From contig NZ_KE384560.1 in the NCBI RefSeq assembly GCF_000426725.1, forward strand, positions 766,960-830,959: a DNA stretch of 64,000 bases. The letters are read 5' to 3'. Below the pieces are notes generated by a model. That model was given only the letters and a program-made list of their open reading frames with translations, did not search any database and was not told the DNA's origin. The DNA is from Sporocytophaga myxococcoides DSM 11118. GTDB taxonomy: Bacteria > Bacteroidota > Bacteroidia > Cytophagales > Cytophagaceae. This document shows, piece after piece, positions 13,233 to 25,382 of the stretch. How positions within the stretch are numbered: the first letter of the stretch is position 1; each line of letters begins with the position of its first letter. The translations under genes and the position numbers were made by a program.

Positions 13233-13318
13233 ATGATGTTCGGAATAAAAGTTTGTAAGTATATATAAATACTCTGATTAATAATAGATTTCTGTAAACA
13301 TACTGCATAAAAAATGTC

Positions 13319-13337
13319 AGCGCAGTTTTTCTGCGTA
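13319..13337 (+). promoter_or_regulatory. Distal copy of shared Ro60/RtcB operator
   Basis: AGCGCA, 7 bases, TGCGTA: the same inverted half-sites and spacer length as the proximal copy at 13384 and the rtcB copy at 60140. Centre-to-centre distance to the proximal site is 65 bases, close to six helical turns, which suits cooperative binding on one DNA face. Confidence 0.65.
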
Positions 13338-13383
13338 ATTCATAATTATAATTATTTAATATTTTTTTCAAAAAAAATATTTG

Positions 13384-13420
13384 TACGCAAAATGACTGCG
13401 TAGTTTAATGTCAATTTTGA
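13384..13420 (+). promoter_or_regulatory. Composite promoter/operator of Ro60 gene
   Basis: TACGCA, 7 bases, TGCGTAGT, 6 bases, TCAATTTTGA. The rtcB gene carries TGCGCA, 7 bases, TGCGTAGT, 6 bases, TCAATTTTGA at 60140-60176 with exactly the same spacing. CAATTTTG resembles the Bacteroidota -7 element TAnnTTTG, so the inverted repeat would overlap the -33 region. It lies 56 bases before the Ro60 start codon. Confidence 0.72.
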
Positions 13421-15118: not shown

Positions 15119-15150
15119 GTTAAAAGAATTAAAATATTTATATATATTAT

Positions 15151-15348
15151 GATCTTGTAGCTTAAAAGGAAAAGCTGCGGAAAAATCACTAACCGCGGAG
15201 TGTAGGGATAGATCTGGTTGCGACTATGCGTTGCAATGAGTAGAGTTTACAGTGCACCGAAATATTTTAAATGAAATATCTTAGGGAAGCGTATTTACAG
15301 CCTTACTGCTCGGAAACGAGAATGTGAGTTCGAATCTCACCAGGATTA
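15151..15348 (+). ncRNA. tRNA-like RNA with large insertion in variable region (array element A)
   Basis: A tRNA fold in normal order can be drawn: acceptor GATCTTG (15151-15157) pairs with CAGGATT (15341-15347) over 7 positions with two G-T pairs; TA follows; D stem GCTT/AAGC (15160-15163, 15172-15175) with a GG-containing loop; an anticodon-like stem GCGG/CCGC (15177-15180, 15193-15196) with an abnormal 12-base loop; T arm GTGAG-TTCGAAT-CTCAC (15324-15340). Between the anticodon arm and T arm are about 127 extra bases, including a CTCG-GAAA-CGAG tetraloop hairpin (15309-15320). It lacks the TGYCGTA block of the other array members. Could be a Ro60 client or effector RNA, or a decayed tRNA gene. 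Confidence 0.5.
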
Positions 15349-15435
15349 CTTTATGTTGTAAGTAATAAGTATTGATTTGTAAGAAGATTTTTATGCAAGC
15401 TTCTCTTTCATGAGAATGCTTTAAGATTGGAAGAT

Positions 15436-15564
15436 AAAAATTGAAATGCCGTAGAATCGGGATACTTCGCTCACTTTGGGGTAGGGTTCTGGCAGCAATG
15501 TCAGGAAGAGGTGCAAATCCTCAATAGCGACCCCCACCCTGATTCGTTCTTGCTTTCGGTTTTT
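15436..15564 (+). ncRNA. Y-RNA-like element B with GNRA hairpin then T arm
   Basis: Outer stem AAAAATTGAAA (15436-15446) pairs with TTTCGGTTTTT (15554-15564), 11 pairs with two G-T. Then come TGCCGTA (15447-15453), inner stem GAATCGGG (15454-15461) pairing with CCC-T-GATTC (15537-15545, one bulge), and ATACTTCG. The loop holds a 6-pair hairpin CTGGCA-GCAA-TGTCAG (15489-15504) with a GNRA tetraloop and a T-arm-like hairpin GAGG-TGCAAAT-CCTC (15508-15522). The stem/internal loop/stem layout is that of a Ro60-binding Y RNA; the loop is a partial tRNA mimic. Confidence 0.62.
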
Positions 15565-15573
15565 AATTAAAGA

Positions 15574-15686
15574 ATTAAGATGTCGTAAATGGGAGATACT
15601 TCGTGGTTGACTTTATGGTTTAGCAGGTTCGAACCCTGCATCAGCAGCAATGCTGAATTTGACTCCCATTGAATATTGCTCTTAAT
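15574..15686 (+). ncRNA. Y-RNA-like element C with T arm then GNRA hairpin
   Basis: Outer stem ATTAAGA/TCTTAAT (15574-15580, 15680-15686); TGTCGTA (15581-15587); inner stem AATGGGAG/CTCCCATT (15588-15595, 15663-15670), all perfect; ATACTTCG next. In the loop is a canonical T arm GCAGG-TTCGAAC-CCTGC (15623-15639) followed by a perfect TCAGCA-GCAA-TGCTGA hairpin (15641-15656). Relative to element B the order of T arm and GCAA hairpin is swapped. The 3' side of the internal loop reads GAATATTGC, close to the GAATTRTNGC of other copies. Confidence 0.68.
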
Positions 15687-15690
15687 AATG

Positions 15691-15760
15691 AACAGTGCCG
15701 TAAGACAGAGATACTTCGAACGATCAATGAAAAATCTCTCTGCCTGAATTATCGCCTGTC
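15691..15760 (+). ncRNA. Minimal Y-RNA-like element D
   Basis: TGCCGTA (15696-15702) lies between a short outer stem ACAG/CTGT (15692-15695, 15756-15759) and an inner stem AGACAGAGA/TCTCTGCCT (15703-15711, 15737-15745, one mismatch), followed by ATACTTCG. The 3' internal-loop strand reads GAATTATCGC. There is no tRNA-like module, so this about 70-base RNA would be only the Ro60-binding stem with a small loop. Confidence 0.58.
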
Positions 15761-15788
15761 TATTTTAAATGAATGAATTCAAAATAAT

Positions 15789-15815
15789 TTAAGCTTTGTA
15801 CCATTTGCTTTAAGC
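15789..15815. repeat. Dispersed AGCTTT/TTTAAGC repeat before element E
   Basis: A stretch with AAGCTTTGTACC and GCTTTAAGC, closely similar to 16039-16069 upstream of element F. The pair suggests that elements E and F arose by tandem duplication together with this flank. Confidence 0.5.
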
Positions 15816-15819
15816 GTAT

Positions 15820-15966
15820 AAGAATGGTGTCGTAGAGAAGAGTTACTTCGGCTTTTAACCGGTAGGACGTGGGTTCGAATCCCACCAGAGTGACAAAGAA
15901 TTTAACTCACTCTGTAGCTCAGTGGTAGAGCAACTTTGTACTCTTTTCGAATTATAACCCATTCTT
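15820..15966 (+). ncRNA. Y-RNA-like element E carrying a circularly permuted tRNA (Lys-like anticodon loop)
   Basis: Outer stem AAGAATGG/CCATTCTT (15820-15827, 15959-15966, perfect), TGTCGTA (15828-15834), inner stem GAGAAGAG/CTCTTTTC (15835-15842, 15941-15948), TTACTTCG. The loop is a whole tRNA in permuted order: hairpin CGG-CTTTTAA-CCG (loop identical to the tRNA-Lys UUU anticodon loop), T arm GTGGG-TTCGAAT-CCCAC (15869-15885), 3' acceptor CAGAGTG plus A (15886-15893), 14-base linker, 5' acceptor CACTCTG (15908-15914, perfect 7 pairs), TA, D arm GCTC-AGTGGTA-GAGC (15917-15931). No CCA is encoded. It resembles the tRNA-mimic YrlA class of bacterial Y RNA. Confidence 0.78.
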
Positions 15967-16038
15967 TATTCTTAATTGAAGAGAAACTAAAGGTAAAGTG
16001 AATTATTCAATAGTTGAATTATGCAAGAGATAAGATAC

Positions 16039-16069
16039 TTTGAGCTTTGTACTTTCTGCTTTAAGCTTA
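16039..16069. repeat. Dispersed AGCTTT/TTTAAGCTT repeat before element F
   Basis: TTGAGCTTTGTAC followed by TTCTGCTTTAAGCTT; near copy of 15789-15815. A looser AACTTTAAAC/TTAAAACTTATCAC version lies at 16255-16290 before element G, so each of E, F and G is preceded by this repeat. Confidence 0.5.
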
Positions 16070-16070
16070 A

Positions 16071-16219
16071 AAAAATGGTGCCGTAGAAAAGAGTTACTTC
16101 GGCTTTTCACCCGGTAGGACGTGGGTTCGATTCCCATCAAAGAGAATAATAATATTAATCTCTCTGTAGCTCAGTGGTAGAGCAACTTGTACTCTTTTCG
16201 AATTGTTGCTCATTTCTTT
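16071..16219 (+). ncRNA. Y-RNA-like element F carrying a circularly permuted tRNA (Glu-like loop)
   Basis: Same plan as element E: outer stem AAATG/CATTT (16073-16077, 16211-16215), TGCCGTA (16079-16085), inner stem GAAAAGAG/CTCTTTTC (16086-16093, 16192-16199), TTACTTCG. Permuted tRNA: hairpin CGG-CTTTTCAC-CCG (contains UUUUCAC as in tRNA-Glu UUC loops, but 8 bases long), T arm GTGGG-TTCGATT-CCCAT (16121-16137), 3' acceptor CAAAGAG plus A (16138-16145), 14-base linker, 5' acceptor CTCTCTG (16160-16166; six of seven pairs, one C-A mismatch), D arm GCTC-AGTGGTA-GAGC (16169-16183). The D arm is identical to element E. Confidence 0.78.
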
Positions 16220-16291
16220 AATTTAGTAGTAACCTAATAAATGTTCAAATTTAAAAAACTTTAAACTTATTACTTAAAACTTATCACTTTT

Positions 16292-16364
16292 TAACAGGTG
16301 CCGTAGAAAAGAGTTACTTCACTGTAAATGAATTAAAATACTTTTTTCGACTTTAGTCCTGTTG
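16292..16364 (+). ncRNA. Minimal Y-RNA-like element G
   Basis: Outer stem AACAGG/CCTGTT (16293-16298, 16358-16363), TGCCGTA (16299-16305), inner stem GAAAAGAGT/ACTTTTTTC (16306-16314, 16340-16348, one G-T), then TACTTCA and a small TTCA/TGAA hairpin. The first 22 bases match element F, but the tRNA module is absent. It ends 32 bases before the nucleotidyltransferase gene, so it could also lie in that gene's leader. Confidence 0.65.
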
Positions 16365-16396
16365 TTTTATATTGGATTTGAAAACAAGAATTTGCC

Positions 16397-18293: not shown

Positions 18294-18380
18294 ATGAAAC
18301 AGCAATCAATCTTTAATATTTTCAAAAGTCTGAAAAGGTCAGGGAACCCTCTGTGCTTTTTCCGGGATTGTTGTTATTGA
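18294..18380 (+). CDS. Leader peptide of Hen1-Pnkp operon (putative attenuator)
   Basis: Short reading frame of 28 codons starting 20 bases after the -7 element and ending in N-P-L-C-F-F-R-D-C-C-Y. It is followed after 27 bases by a strong terminator hairpin (18408-18434) located before the Hen1 start. Bases TCCGGG (18361-18366), inside the peptide codons, can pair with CCCGGA (18412-18417), the 5' arm of that terminator, giving an antiterminator. Ribosome stalling near the Cys/Phe codons could therefore permit read-through. Two similar Phe-Cys-Cys peptides precede the tRNA-Cys gene at 24.4-24.6 kb. Expression of the peptide is not proven. Confidence 0.5.
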   Translation: MKQQSIFNIFKSLKRSGNPLCFFRDCCY

Positions 18381-18407: not shown

Positions 18408-18434
18408 AAAGCCCGGACATTAAATCCGGGCTTT
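18408..18434 (+). terminator. Terminator/attenuator hairpin before Hen1
   Basis: Perfect 10-base stem AAAGCCCGGA/TCCGGGCTTT with a 7-base loop, followed by ATTATTTTAT. It lies between the operon promoter (18243) and the Hen1 start codon (18491), so it must be passed for expression. Confidence 0.8.
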
Positions 18435-22490: not shown

Positions 22491-23015
22491 ATGGGTTTGA
22501 TAATAGTAGATGTAGAGGCTGACGGCCCAATTCCCGGAAAATACAGTATGGTATGTTTCGGGGCGATTGTTGTAGAACCGTCATTGTCAAAGACATTTTA
22601 TGGCAAGGTGAAACCTGTTTCTGGAGAATGGATACCTGAAGCACTTGCTGTAAGCGGATTTTCAAGGGAGGAACATTCCTTATTTGATGAGCCACATGTT
22701 GTGATGTCGAGTTTTGAATTATGGCTGAAAGAAAATGTAAAAGGTAAACCTGTGTTTCTTTCAGATAACCTTGCATTTGACTGGCAATGGATTAATTATT
22801 ATTTTCATTATTATCTTGGCAGAAATCCTTTTGGATTCAGCGGAAGACGTATTGGAGATCTTTATTCAGGGATGATTGGTGATATTATGAAAGGATCAGA
22901 GTGGAAGAAATTCCGAATGACAAGGCATACGCATAACCCTGTAGATGATGCAAGAGGCAATGCAGAAGCTATGTTAAAATTAAGAGAGATGGGATTGAAG
23001 TTCCCATTTAAATAA
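22491..23015 (+). CDS. 3'-5' exonuclease, DEDDh (RNase T/DnaQ-like)
   Basis: Exonuclease of 174 residues, about the size of RNase T-like enzymes. The first acidic motif is I-V-D-V-E-A-D-G (Asp7, Glu9), the second S-D-N-L-A-F-D, and the third H-N-P-V-D-D-A-R-G-N with the DEDDh His/Asp pair. It lies 19 bases after Pnkp. A role in trimming RNA 3' ends before Hen1 methylation or sealing is plausible from context, but DNA substrates cannot be excluded. Confidence 0.85.
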   Translation: MGLIIVDVEADGPIPGKYSMVCFGAIVVEPSLSKTFYGKVKPVSGEWIPEALAVSGFSREEHSLFDEPHVVMSSFELWLKENVKGKPVFLSDNLAFDWQWINYYFHYYLGRNPFGFSGRRIGDLYSGMIGDIMKGSEWKKFRMTRHTHNPVDDARGNAEAMLKLREMGLKFPFK

Positions 23016-23037: not shown

Positions 23038-23418
23038 ATGAAATTAAAGAAATTGTTTAGACCCGTAGGAGTGAAGGAGCTGGAACTTATAAAAAAATCC
23101 GGAATGAAAGCTTATCCCCCTCGTTTTTCATGGCAACCAATTTTTTATCCTGTCCTCAACTTTGAATATGCAGCGCAAATAGCAAAGGAGTGGAACACTG
23201 AAGATGAAGGCTCCGGGTTCGCAGGCTTTGTTACGGAGTTTGAAATTCCTGAGGCGTATTTTCTTAACTTCAAAGTTCAAAATGTGGGAGGGAAGATTTA
23301 TGAAGAATTATGGGTGCCTTCTGAACGTCTTACAGAGTTCAATAATAATATATTCAATGATATTCTTGTGGCGGCTGGGTTTTACGGAGATAGGTACATC
23401 GGTGAAAGAATTTATTAA
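23038..23418 (+). CDS. Conserved protein of unknown function in RNA repair operon
   Basis: 126 residues, no signal peptide or membrane segment. Distinct conserved-looking blocks are F-R-P-V-G-V-K-E-L-E-L-I, F-Y-P-V-L-N-F-E-Y-A, and G-F-x-G-F-V-T-E-F-E-I, with a late E-E-L-W-V-P-S-E-R-L. I do not recognise an enzymatic motif. It begins 22 bases after the exonuclease on the same strand and may be the last gene of the Hen1-Pnkp operon, which would link it to RNA repair by context only. A convergent terminator follows. Confidence 0.7.
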   Translation: MKLKKLFRPVGVKELELIKKSGMKAYPPRFSWQPIFYPVLNFEYAAQIAKEWNTEDEGSGFAGFVTEFEIPEAYFLNFKVQNVGGKIYEELWVPSERLTEFNNNIFNDILVAAGFYGDRYIGERIY

Positions 23419-23429
23419 AATTGGATTTA

Positions 23430-23455
23430 AGAGGATTGTTATTTAGCAATCCTCT
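23430..23455. terminator. Bidirectional terminator between convergent genes
   Basis: AGAGGATTG (23430-23438) and CAATCCTCT (23447-23455) form a perfect 9-base stem with an 8-base loop; it overlaps the stop of the leftward gene at 23443. Confidence 0.6.
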
Positions 23456-24135
23456 ATTCTATTTTTGTTTAAAATGGCATAGATCATACCGTCAAGTGTT
23501 TTCGAATTTTTATCATAATCAGTATAATCTAAAGTTACATCTGATGTATTTGGTTGTCTTAGCAAGTTCAATTGCCTGAGATTATGAGTAATTGGAGTAT
23601 TGATCTCCGAAGCCCAATGGATTATATCTACACAGTTAACATCAATTGCACCTTGGACATAATTTATTTGTGATAGAGGAACCCATGTATAAAGTAATTT
23701 TTCATTACTAACATATTCAAGCCAGAGCCAGGTATCCCAAGGCGGTATATCGTAAATATCAATGAAGCAATTGGATTCTGCTTCTGAAGCTCCGTCTGTT
23801 ACTGTATTGTTAAATTCTGTGATTAAAAGATGGCCTTTGGAAACTACATCTTCAAGCTTCATTAAAGGAATATTTTTTTCTTTAAGAATATTTCTTCTTG
23901 TTTCAAGAACTTTAATTATAATATTTCCCTGTTCTTCTTGAGTTGCTTCAACGAGAATGTTATCTGGCTCGAGTTCTCGGCTTCTTAATAATTTACTTCC
24001 ATTCTGAGGAATAACAAATTCAAGCCATGTAGCAGTTTCAATCCATCTTTGCAGAAAGTCATCTGCATATATCGGTATTGTTTCATTTTTTGATTCTCTT
24101 TTAAAAAGATTTTTCAAATAGGTTATCATATGCAT
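23443..24135 (-). CDS. Hypothetical cytosolic protein
   Basis: 230 residues, no signal peptide, mostly soluble. Noticeable segments are a Trp-rich stretch (I-P-P-W-D-T-W-L-W-L-E-Y) and the acidic W-A-S-E-I region. The presence of a late T-L-D-G-M-I-Y-A-I-L motif gives no family. It lies between the RNA repair operon (convergent) and the tRNA-Cys gene 16 bases upstream on the same strand, so tRNA-Cys and this gene could share a transcript. The alternative start Met3 is equally possible. Function not recognised. Confidence 0.6.
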   Translation of the reverse strand: MHMITYLKNLFKRESKNETIPIYADDFLQRWIETATWLEFVIPQNGSKLLRSRELEPDNILVEATQEEQGNIIIKVLETRRNILKEKNIPLMKLEDVVSKGHLLITEFNNTVTDGASEAESNCFIDIYDIPPWDTWLWLEYVSNEKLLYTWVPLSQINYVQGAIDVNCVDIIHWASEINTPITHNLRQLNLLRQPNTSDVTLDYTDYDKNSKTLDGMIYAILNKNRIEDC

Positions 24136-24151
24136 TTAGAAATTATGTAAG

Positions 24152-24222
24152 AGCAGGTAGCCGGAATCGAACCGGCGTATTCGGTTTTGCAGACCGACAC
24201 CTTACCACTTGGTTATACCTGC
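24152..24222 (-). tRNA. tRNA-Cys (GCA)
   Basis: 71-base cloverleaf on the minus strand: acceptor GCAGGTA/TACCTGC, D arm ACC/GGT, anticodon stem TCGGT/ACCGA with loop CTGCAAA (anticodon GCA), T arm GCCGG-TTCGATT-CCGGC, discriminator U as expected for Cys. CCA is not encoded. It lies downstream of two leader peptides with tandem Cys codons and two terminators. Confidence 0.95.
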
Positions 24223-24310
24223 TTGTGTACGAACCTCCGGTTATGCTCCGGTTTCTCTGGTTTTTCAAGCCGCTTCTACTAAGTTAGCTTGACTCCCAGT
24301 ATAAAATAAA

Positions 24311-24337
24311 AATCCCTTAGAGGATGTCTAAGGGATT
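24311..24337 (-). terminator. Second terminator in tRNA-Cys leader
   Basis: Perfect 11-base stem AATCCCTTAGA/TCTAAGGGATT with a 5-base loop; on the minus strand it is followed by TTTATTTTAT. It lies 28 bases after leader peptide 2 and 88 bases before tRNA-Cys. Confidence 0.8.
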
Positions 24338-24365
24338 CTTACAAAAGAATATAGTAAATCTATCC

Positions 24366-24422
24366 TCAGACACTAGAGTGAATGATAAAGCAACAGAATG
24401 TATGTGAATATGTAAATGTCAT
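24366..24422 (-). CDS. Putative leader peptide 2 (Phe-Cys-Cys-Phe) upstream of tRNA-Cys
   Basis: 18-codon frame M-T-F-T-Y-S-H-T-F-C-C-F-I-I-H with adjacent TGT-TGC codons, ending 28 bases before a strong terminator and about 200 bases upstream of the tRNA-Cys gene on the same strand. Arrangement is that of an attenuator whose peptide senses charged tRNA-Cys. It is supported by position and by recurrence (24496-24570, 18294-18380), not by expression evidence. Confidence 0.42.
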   Translation of the reverse strand: MTFTYSHTFCCFIIHSSV

Positions 24423-24444
24423 TTTTATCAAAGCTTATTAAATA

Positions 24445-24474
24445 AAAAACCCGGACTAAGTAGCCCGGGTTTTT
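24445..24474. terminator. First terminator in tRNA-Cys leader (bidirectional)
   Basis: AAAAACCCGG (24445-24454) and CCGGGTTTTT (24465-24474), a perfect 10-base stem with A run and T run, so it can act on either strand. It is 21 bases beyond leader peptide 1. Confidence 0.8.
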
Positions 24475-24495
24475 GTAGTGAATTGTATTTTTGCA

Positions 24496-24570
24496 TCAAT
24501 ACAAATCTTCCTCAGGCCTGATGAAATCAGGGGAACAACAGAAGAAGAATATGTTTTGAATAAGTATCAT
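24496..24570 (-). CDS. Putative leader peptide 1 (Phe-Phe-Phe-Cys-Cys) upstream of tRNA-Cys
   Basis: 24-codon frame starting about 10 bases after a predicted transcription start and containing N-I-F-F-F-C-C-S-P-D-F (TTC-TTC-TTC-TGT-TGT). It ends 21 bases before a strong terminator. With leader peptide 2 it forms a tandem leader-terminator arrangement ahead of tRNA-Cys. Inside the frame CCTGA/TCAGG can form a small hairpin that might serve as a pause site. Confidence 0.45.
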   Translation of the reverse strand: MILIQNIFFFCCSPDFIRPEEDLY

Positions 24571-24587
24571 ATCAGCGATTATTAATA

Positions 24588-24620
24588 CAAAGGTAAAACT
24601 AATTTTTTATATCATCCAAG
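24588..24620 (-). promoter_or_regulatory. Promoter for leader peptides and tRNA-Cys
   Basis: On the minus strand CTTG, about 21 bases, TACCTTTG (24588-24595) matches TTTG-N19-21-TAnnTTTG with one change. Start would fall near 24580, giving a leader of about 360 bases before tRNA-Cys. Confidence 0.55.
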
Positions 24621-25085
24621 TTCGTATAAGAAAATTAATTTTTAAGTACTGTTATGCAATTAGGATATATTAAACCTTTCGTAATAAATTCAGCCTCTAA
24701 GTTTCGGAACCTTATCAGACTTTTTTATTTATATAATTCCTTCTAATATAAGCTTAATTGCCACAAACCAAATTCATTTTGTCAAAGGTTAGCTTTCAGG
24801 CTCAACGTCATTGGTTCTTATTGGATTTATAATACTTGAATCATTTTATTATTCTTTAGGGAATTATCATAGCATTGGTGAGTTTTGTATAGTTTATATG
24901 ACAGTGAACATTATCCAAGCACATATTTATTGAAAATATTGAATTTAATAAAACTGGTTGTCTCGTTTGAAAACCAATTGATTAAATAGTCCTCTAAGCT
25001 GCTTCTTAAATTTTAACAAATTAAAAATTCTGGCTTTTTAATTCGGTCAATTTATATTTGCGGTATATCTTAAAAAAATCATTCA
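24621..25085. other. AT-rich intergenic region without recognised gene
   Basis: No credible coding frame, tRNA or strong hairpin seen. A TATATTTG (25053-25060) resembling the Bacteroidota -7 element lies 25 bases before the Dabb gene and is its likely promoter, though no clear -33 TTTG was found. Confidence 0.5.
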
Positions 25086-25382
25086 ATGCTTACCCATCAC
25101 GTTTTATTCTGGCTGAAAGCCGATACTACCGAAGATCAAAAGAAGGCATTTAGAGCCGGACTTGATTCACTTATAAATGTAGAAACCATTAAGTCTATGT
25201 ATGTAGGAACTCCAGCTCCTATAAGCAGACCTGTTGTTGATACAACTTATACCTTTTCATTGGTAATTGTATTTGAAGACCTTGCGGGGCATGATGTTTA
25301 TCAGGTACATCCGGTGCATAAGGCATTTCTTGAAGAGTTCAGACAGTATTTTGAGAAAGTAGTTATATATGATGCTCAGTAA
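25086..25382 (+). CDS. Dabb family (stress-responsive alpha/beta barrel) protein
   Basis: 98 residues, a small dimeric ferredoxin-like barrel. Family marks are the N-terminal L-T-H-H-V-L-F-W-L-K, the P-A-P-I-S-R-P-V-V segment with T-Y-T-F-S-L-V-I-V-F, and the C-terminal H-P-V-H-K-A-F motif. Members include enzymes and stress proteins; the reaction here is unknown. It stands alone with its own terminator 24 bases after the stop. Confidence 0.88.
   Translation: MLTHHVLFWLKADTTEDQKKAFRAGLDSLINVETIKSMYVGTPAPISRPVVDTTYTFSLVIVFEDLAGHDVYQVHPVHKAFLEEFRQYFEKVVIYDAQ

Follow-up and report, generated by a model that had tools for sequence, protein, structure and literature searches.

Putative tandem attenuators with Phe/Cys-codon leader peptides upstream of an accessory tRNA-Cys gene in Sporocytophaga myxococcoides

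Amino-acid, synthetase and resistance genes are known to be controlled by leader-peptide attenuation. Can a tRNA gene be placed under the same kind of control? The question was raised by a locus of Sporocytophaga myxococcoides DSM 11118 where two short peptides with adjacent cysteine codons, each followed by an intrinsic terminator, preceded a tRNA-Cys gene. We analysed the 64,000-nt stretch of DNA that contained this locus (contig NZ_KE384560.1, positions 766,960 to 830,959). This whole stretch is called the window below, and all positions are given within it.

The elements of the locus lay on the minus strand in the order promoter, uORF1 (with FFFCC), terminator 1, uORF2 (with FCCF), terminator 2 and tRNA-Cys(GCA). 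This order, as well as the two peptides, agreed with the initial annotation of the DNA. The promoter (24588..24619) consisted of TTG at 24619-24617 and, after a 21-nt spacer, TACCTTTG at 24595-24588, which was the only minus-strand match to TAnnTTTG between 25085 and 24150. TAnnTTTG is the Bacteroidetes -7 element, and in the same genome it was found within 120 nt in 20 of 44 tRNA upstream regions. The annotation had held that its reading would fail if the tRNA were transcribed only from a promoter inside 24222-24311; no TAnnTTTG was found in that interval. Transcription would start at about 24585. The leader ORFs with their runs of control codons were situated between the promoter and a terminator (uORF1) and between the two terminators (uORF2). 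Namely, uORF1 (MILIQNIFFFCCSPDFIRPEEDLY and a stop codon, 24496..24570) had the run Phe-Phe-Phe-Cys-Cys, and its antiterminator strand (24510..24518) could form a duplex with the 5' arm of terminator 1 (24445..24474; 13 pairs, 6 of them GC). uORF2 (MTFTYSHTFCCFIIHSSV and a stop codon, 24366..24422) had the run Phe-Cys-Cys-Phe. Its antiterminator strand (24362..24374) comprised the last codons, the stop codon and GGAT and could pair with 24337-24324, the last codons and the stop meeting the 5' arm and loop of terminator 2 (24306..24342; 16 pairs, 4 of them GC). Thus, the Cys-codon reading of the annotation was correct for cysteine but incomplete, since the control codons were Phe as well as Cys. 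The accessory tRNA-Cys(GCA) gene (24151..24222; 72.1 bits in RF00005) began 83 nt past terminator 2. Before it, at about 24226..24297, was a degenerate tRNA-Phe(GAA)-like element, recognised by its counterpart in a metagenome bin of the same genus (G002). An ORF of 230 aa (23443..24135) followed on the same strand and was probably co-transcribed with the tRNA-Cys.

How far were the leaders conserved? When 59 genomes were searched with the DNA of the leaders and the tRNA, the leaders were found in two of one genus, the window's own and G002, and nine further genomes gave short matches only (26-52 nt). Four codons of uORF1 differed in G002, all of them non-synonymously (0 synonymous changes); three of these were near the start and one replaced Phe by Tyr (F9Y). 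From codon 10 to the stop, Cys-Cys included, uORF1 was identical, which could be explained equally well by RNA pairing. In uORF2, nine codons differed in all: codons 2-8 had four non-synonymous changes and one synonymous change, and codons 9-18 had four synonymous changes and no non-synonymous ones. The annotation had named a lack of peptide conservation as grounds for giving up its reading; the Cys-Cys pair was kept in G002, the sole relative with the leaders. Together with a sister leader upstream of Hen1-Pnkp (see below), Cys-Cys was unchanged in eight leaders (2/2 for uORF1, 2/2 for uORF2 and 4/4 for the Hen1 leader). Two other members of the genus (G001 and G003) had the same gene order, but there about 211-212 bp replaced the 1.67 kb (23418 to 25086) that held the tRNA module.

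The tRNA-Cys pattern matched at least 247 of 291 genomes, and the contexts of 54 loci were read. ARAGORN called tRNA-Cys at 50 of these loci, 53 genes in total, three of which were the other copies in the window's genome. In the 700 nt before each of these 53 genes (567 nt in one case), no uORF-terminator unit contained Cys-Cys, Phe-Cys or Cys-Phe, and the leader was rejected as a general feature of tRNA-Cys genes of the order. The search for Phe-Cys-Cys peptides before tRNA-Cys that the annotation had proposed for this order ended with G002 alone. The pattern FCCFIIH matched at least 117 GTDB stretches and gave 100 matches in viral contigs; among the 217 matches listed, none had a tRNA-Cys within 1.5 kb, and only the contig of G002 was recognised as a uORF2 leader.

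Folding supported a switch most clearly for uORF2. The predicted antiterminator duplex of uORF2 had an energy of -16.7 kcal/mol, equalled by one of 2000 dinucleotide shuffles; the corresponding duplex in G002 reached -14.1 kcal/mol, and 0/2000 shuffles were as good. For uORF1, the duplex had -12.6 kcal/mol with 59/2000 shuffles as good, and the G002 value was -14.8 kcal/mol, an energy without shuffle control. The Hen1 leader showed no significant antiterminator, as 308/2000 shuffles matched the native sequence. With the ribosome on Cys and the leader truncated, at the 3' terminator arm for uORF2 and five bases into that arm for uORF1, the antiterminator was the minimum-energy fold in both leaders and in both genomes. 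In full-length folds, the terminators were favoured in 21 of 22 cases whatever the ribosome position, and the exceptions to a clean terminator were two G002 folds of uORF1 with the ribosome on Cys, in which the antiterminator was kept. In the window's genome, the terminator won at every ribosome position tried once its 3' arm was complete. Therefore, the switch in this genome must be kinetic, acting co-transcriptionally. Classical attenuators likewise depend on co-transcriptional folding. In uORF2, the antiterminator was mutually exclusive with the terminator. If a ribosome is taken to cover about 13 nt downstream, one on uORF2 codons 9-12 (Phe-Cys-Cys-Phe) would free the antiterminator strand, while one at the stop codon would, judging from its position, cover it.

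Which tRNA would such a switch release? Judged by its sequence, the tRNA-Cys appeared functional, with a tRNA fold, a GCA anticodon and U73, the last being a mark of functional tRNA-Cys. The window's genome had four tRNA-Cys genes, one of which was located behind an ORF read by eye as ribosomal protein S1 (rpsA). This rpsA-linked gene was identical in G001 and G002 and had no Cys-codon leader, and because of its existence the window tRNA-Cys can be considered a spare. The two differed considerably: the window tRNA-Cys had 64% identity to the rpsA-linked, single-copy housekeeping gene and a median of 64% to 39 other distinct tRNA-Cys, compared with 86% to 38 others for the rpsA-linked one. We therefore class the window copy as a tRNA of foreign type. 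Thus, the gene reported in the annotation was real, but it was a surplus foreign-type copy rather than the housekeeping one, and the tRNA-Phe-like element beside it had been missed. The anticodon loops of the spare and the rpsA-linked tRNA-Cys were the same, so that resistance to an anticodon nuclease was not visible. Over part of its length the spare resembled phage tRNA-Cys (27 phage records; the listed matches had 75-88% identity over 48-65 nt). Mobile origins of the module were considered and rejected. A plasmid origin had no plasmid match. For a phage origin, the leader-1 stretch and the FFRDCCY pattern were unmatched in viral contigs, the 230-aa protein had no viral relative, and the phage records matched only part of the tRNA-Cys.

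The tRNA-Phe-like element scored 36.3 bits in RF00005 in G002 (threshold 29), with the anticodon GAA in the loop CUGAAAA. Its minimum-energy fold there was a cloverleaf, although 20 of 200 shuffles folded as well and the centroid was less complete. The T loop was abnormal and had no TTC, and ARAGORN called the element in neither the window nor G002. In the window, three bases were lost in the anticodon arm and the element folded otherwise; it had no RF00005 match and did not qualify as a functional tRNA-Phe gene. As the element precedes tRNA-Cys, a tRNA sequence of matching identity is present for each of the two control amino acids: the Cys codons are cognate to the tRNA-Cys, and the Phe codons to the tRNA-Phe-like element, which scored as a tRNA only in G002. 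In that bin the tRNA-Cys was cut after 14 nt by an apparent deletion that ran into the 230-aa ORF. These remains point to an ancestral Phe-Cys tRNA pair that may have lost a different half in each genome. Encoding of CCA as a mark of the Phe and Cys tRNAs was also tried and rejected, since two of the 41 distinct tRNA genes were flagged, neither of them for Phe or Cys.

The plus strand nearby carried an RNA-repair island with a TROVE/Ro60 protein, a repeat array, two RlaP, Hen1, Pnkp and an exonuclease. A sister leader peptide (MKQQSIFNIFKSLKRSGNPLCFFRDCCY and a stop codon, 18294..18380) preceded Hen1-Pnkp, with a terminator (18408..18434) between it and Hen1. Its end, FRDCCY and the stop, was kept in 4/4 genus members; elsewhere it had C21Y in G001 and G003 and one Phe replaced by Ser in G002. 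A deletion had fused Hen1 to Pnkp (L054:3727-4978) in this last genome, the same bin where the tRNA-Cys was cut. Hen1 was present in 68 of 291 genomes. In the 30 Hen1 loci surveyed, a Cys-Cys unit was found in three, all in the genus, and in 0/27 others; the remaining 38 genomes with Hen1 included G002, whose leader was read separately.

Taken together, these features suggest the following mechanism. Two attenuators in series would guard an accessory operon of the tRNA-Phe-like element, the tRNA-Cys and the 230-aa ORF. With charged tRNA-Phe and tRNA-Cys plentiful, the ribosome would complete each uORF and cover the antiterminator strand, and the terminator would form. If either tRNA ran short, the ribosome would stall on the Phe/Cys run, the exposed antiterminator strand could pair with the terminator's 5' arm, and the polymerase would then read through into the tRNA-Cys. 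Damage or depletion of tRNA-Cys or tRNA-Phe would be the likeliest trigger, because an extra tRNA cures the loss of a tRNA and not amino-acid starvation, and because the module adjoins an RNA-repair island in which Hen1-Pnkp has its own Phe/Cys-codon leader. The layout, the codons, the terminators and the uORF2 antiterminator can be read directly in the DNA; beyond them, the mechanism supposes that the uORFs are translated, that stalling leads to read-through and that the trigger is the one named. Several findings speak against this mechanism: the full-length folds that favour the terminators, the non-synonymous changes in uORF1 with a Phe turned into Tyr, the lack of significance for the Hen1 antiterminator, the occurrence of the leaders in two genomes, the cut tRNA-Cys of G002 and the unaltered anticodon loop of the spare. 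On balance, we consider it probable that tandem ribosome-mediated attenuators release the spare tRNA when charged tRNA-Cys or tRNA-Phe runs low, with tRNA damage as the most sensible cause. If so, the tRNA would govern its own supply through feedback. A wider scheme, which we put forward tentatively and with some doubt, is that Phe/Cys-codon leaders sense when specific tRNAs are lost and turn on Hen1-Pnkp repair together with replacement tRNAs, so that a missing tRNA induces its own substitute. A tRNA missing at defined codons would then be the suggested signal that RNA repair by Hen1-Pnkp is needed.

The same arrangement might be nothing but short ORFs that happened to precede two ordinary terminators, since short ORFs occur often and, in an AT-rich stretch, many control codons begin with T. 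Units of a short ORF (8-45 codons) followed by a terminator were counted outside long ORFs, one per stop codon and some of them overlapping, in 464 kb that comprised the window and twenty 20-kb stretches (400 kb) spaced over the same genome. There were 38 such units, 12 from the window and 26 from the sample, and the latter represented the unbiased control because the window itself was chosen partly for these features. Cys-Cys was found in 3/38 units, all in the island, namely uORF1, uORF2 and the Hen1-Pnkp leader at 18294 (6 kb off), and in none of the 26 sample units. These counts bore out two earlier claims, that the adjacent Cys codons were unlikely to be chance and that the peptides resembled the Hen1-Pnkp leader, as no other unit among the 38 had Cys-Cys. 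When a TAnnTTTG promoter was required, three units were left, and two of them were uORF1 and the Hen1 leader. Moreover, the antiterminator of uORF2 ranked first of the 38 units (0/500 shuffles as good) and that of uORF1 third (9/500), with 53/500 for the Hen1 leader. Both the control count and these ranks argue against coincidence, which we regard as extremely improbable.

Other explanations accept the leaders as real or once real and differ in what they were for. The attenuators could serve the 230-aa protein, perhaps in immunity or stress, with the tRNA and the tRNA-like element as passengers or processing signals. The ORF started 15 nt past the tRNA-Cys with no terminator-like site between them, the protein had matches in 11 genomes from other genera of the order, six of which shared a PxxDTW core with it on alignment, and G002 kept the leaders though its tRNA-Cys was cut. 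However, none of the 11 homologues had a Cys-Cys unit upstream or a tRNA in the flanks examined, in G002 the ORF was reduced to roughly its last third (residues 154-230), and the agreement of the codons with both tRNAs would have to be coincidental; we find this role unlikely. The protein itself matched no family, its structure was predicted with a pLDDT of 33, and its profile gave weak matches to solved structures (best E 0.0005, no single stretch passing). It is quite unlikely, in our estimate, that the locus is a decayed or foreign tRNA remnant with relic leaders and terminators that merely insulate, without regulation. Such decay would fit the erosion of the tRNA-Phe-like element in the window's genome, the cut tRNA-Cys and the broken Hen1 and Pnkp of G002, and the lack of the module at the same place in G001 and G003, but not the intact tRNA-Cys of the window with its 72.1 bits, nor a uORF2 core that changed only synonymously and kept its antiterminator in both genomes. 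Finally, Phe, Tyr and Cys tRNAs share GNA anticodons and a hypermodified A37, and Phe or Cys of the control runs was swapped with Tyr, still a UNN codon, in uORF1 of G002 and in the Hen1 leader of G001 and G003. The leaders might on this account sense under-modified or damaged UNN-reading tRNAs generally and not Phe/Cys as such, a proposal that overlaps with the attenuation favoured here. Since Cys-Cys was invariant in all eight leaders and a Hen1-leader Phe became Ser in G002, we consider it very improbable.

The preferred reading, attenuation by scarcity of charged tRNA-Cys or tRNA-Phe, has several known relatives. Ribosome-mediated attenuators of amino-acid operons include the trp, his, phe, leu and thr leaders (Rfam RF00512, RF00506, RF01859). 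The module resembled them in its short leader ORFs, repeated control codons and overlapping terminator and predicted antiterminator, but it would control a tRNA gene instead of biosynthesis or synthetase genes and had two attenuators in series and two control amino acids. Rfam scores of uORF1 were below threshold: 24.8 bits for Leu_leader (threshold 50), 19.8 for Thr_leader (55) and 17.1 for Phe_leader (55). T-box leaders also control transcription by tRNA charging, which they would have in common with the module, but they bind the tRNA directly and have no leader peptide, whereas the module has leader peptides. A T-box or other Rfam element was rejected, as none was found at the gathering threshold and no T-box was among the 33 matches listed for 24100-24700 with E up to 10.

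The PA5471.1-armZ leader of P. aeruginosa is described as having Gln-Phe codons that respond to tRNAs unchargeable without Cca; that leader drives a drug-pump antirepressor, while the window leaders precede a tRNA (PMC13041342). The rsr-yrlBA-rtcBA RNA repair operon of Salmonella includes a Ro60-type protein and Y RNA and is induced by broken tRNAs (PMC7790460). It senses them through binding of tRNA fragments by RtcR and uses RtcB/RtcA, in contrast to Hen1/Pnkp here, and no leader peptide is mentioned in its abstract or discussion, compared with the Hen1-Pnkp leader here (PMC7790460). Phage tRNAs have been proposed as replacements for host tRNAs cleaved by nucleases (PMC10264068). The window tRNA-Cys would be similar as a foreign-type spare that answers tRNA depletion, but it was chromosomal, located behind attenuators and unaltered in its anticodon loop (PMC10264068). 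Neither an attenuated tRNA gene nor a Hen1-Pnkp leader peptide was found in the open-access literature searched.

Several additional observations concerned the island and the tRNA genes of this genome. Between Ro60 and RlaP, at 15140-16380, there was an array of repeated RNA-like units (GTGCCGTAGAAAAGAGTTACTTCGGC) with D-arm-like and T-arm-like pieces, some of them permuted, which by eye resembled bacterial Y RNAs with tRNA-mimic domains. The array had no Rfam match at the gathering threshold and was conserved in G001, G002 and G003. An inverted TGCGYA-type motif was seen by eye upstream of both Ro60 (13300-13410) and, in several other genera, Hen1 (L063, L069, L071, L078, L079), and it is possibly the operator of a common RNA-repair regulator. 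The 3'-5' exonuclease at 22491-23015, between Pnkp and the tRNA module, matched the PADLOC 'Effector' exonuclease model with E 4.8e-37. Elsewhere in the window's genome (G000), two identical tandem tRNA-Cys genes had G33 (L045:1501-1702; G000:C19, about 304758-304958) at a position where U33 is near-universal in tRNAs. The pair was situated in an apparent polyketide-type biosynthetic cluster, as judged by eye, with a third, degenerate tRNA-like sequence behind it. An unusual Pro-Gln-His tRNA array was located at contig ends (L046, L050; G000:C12, G000:C1), and the near-identical tRNA-Pro on both G000:C12 and G000:C1 suggests a repeated tRNA array.
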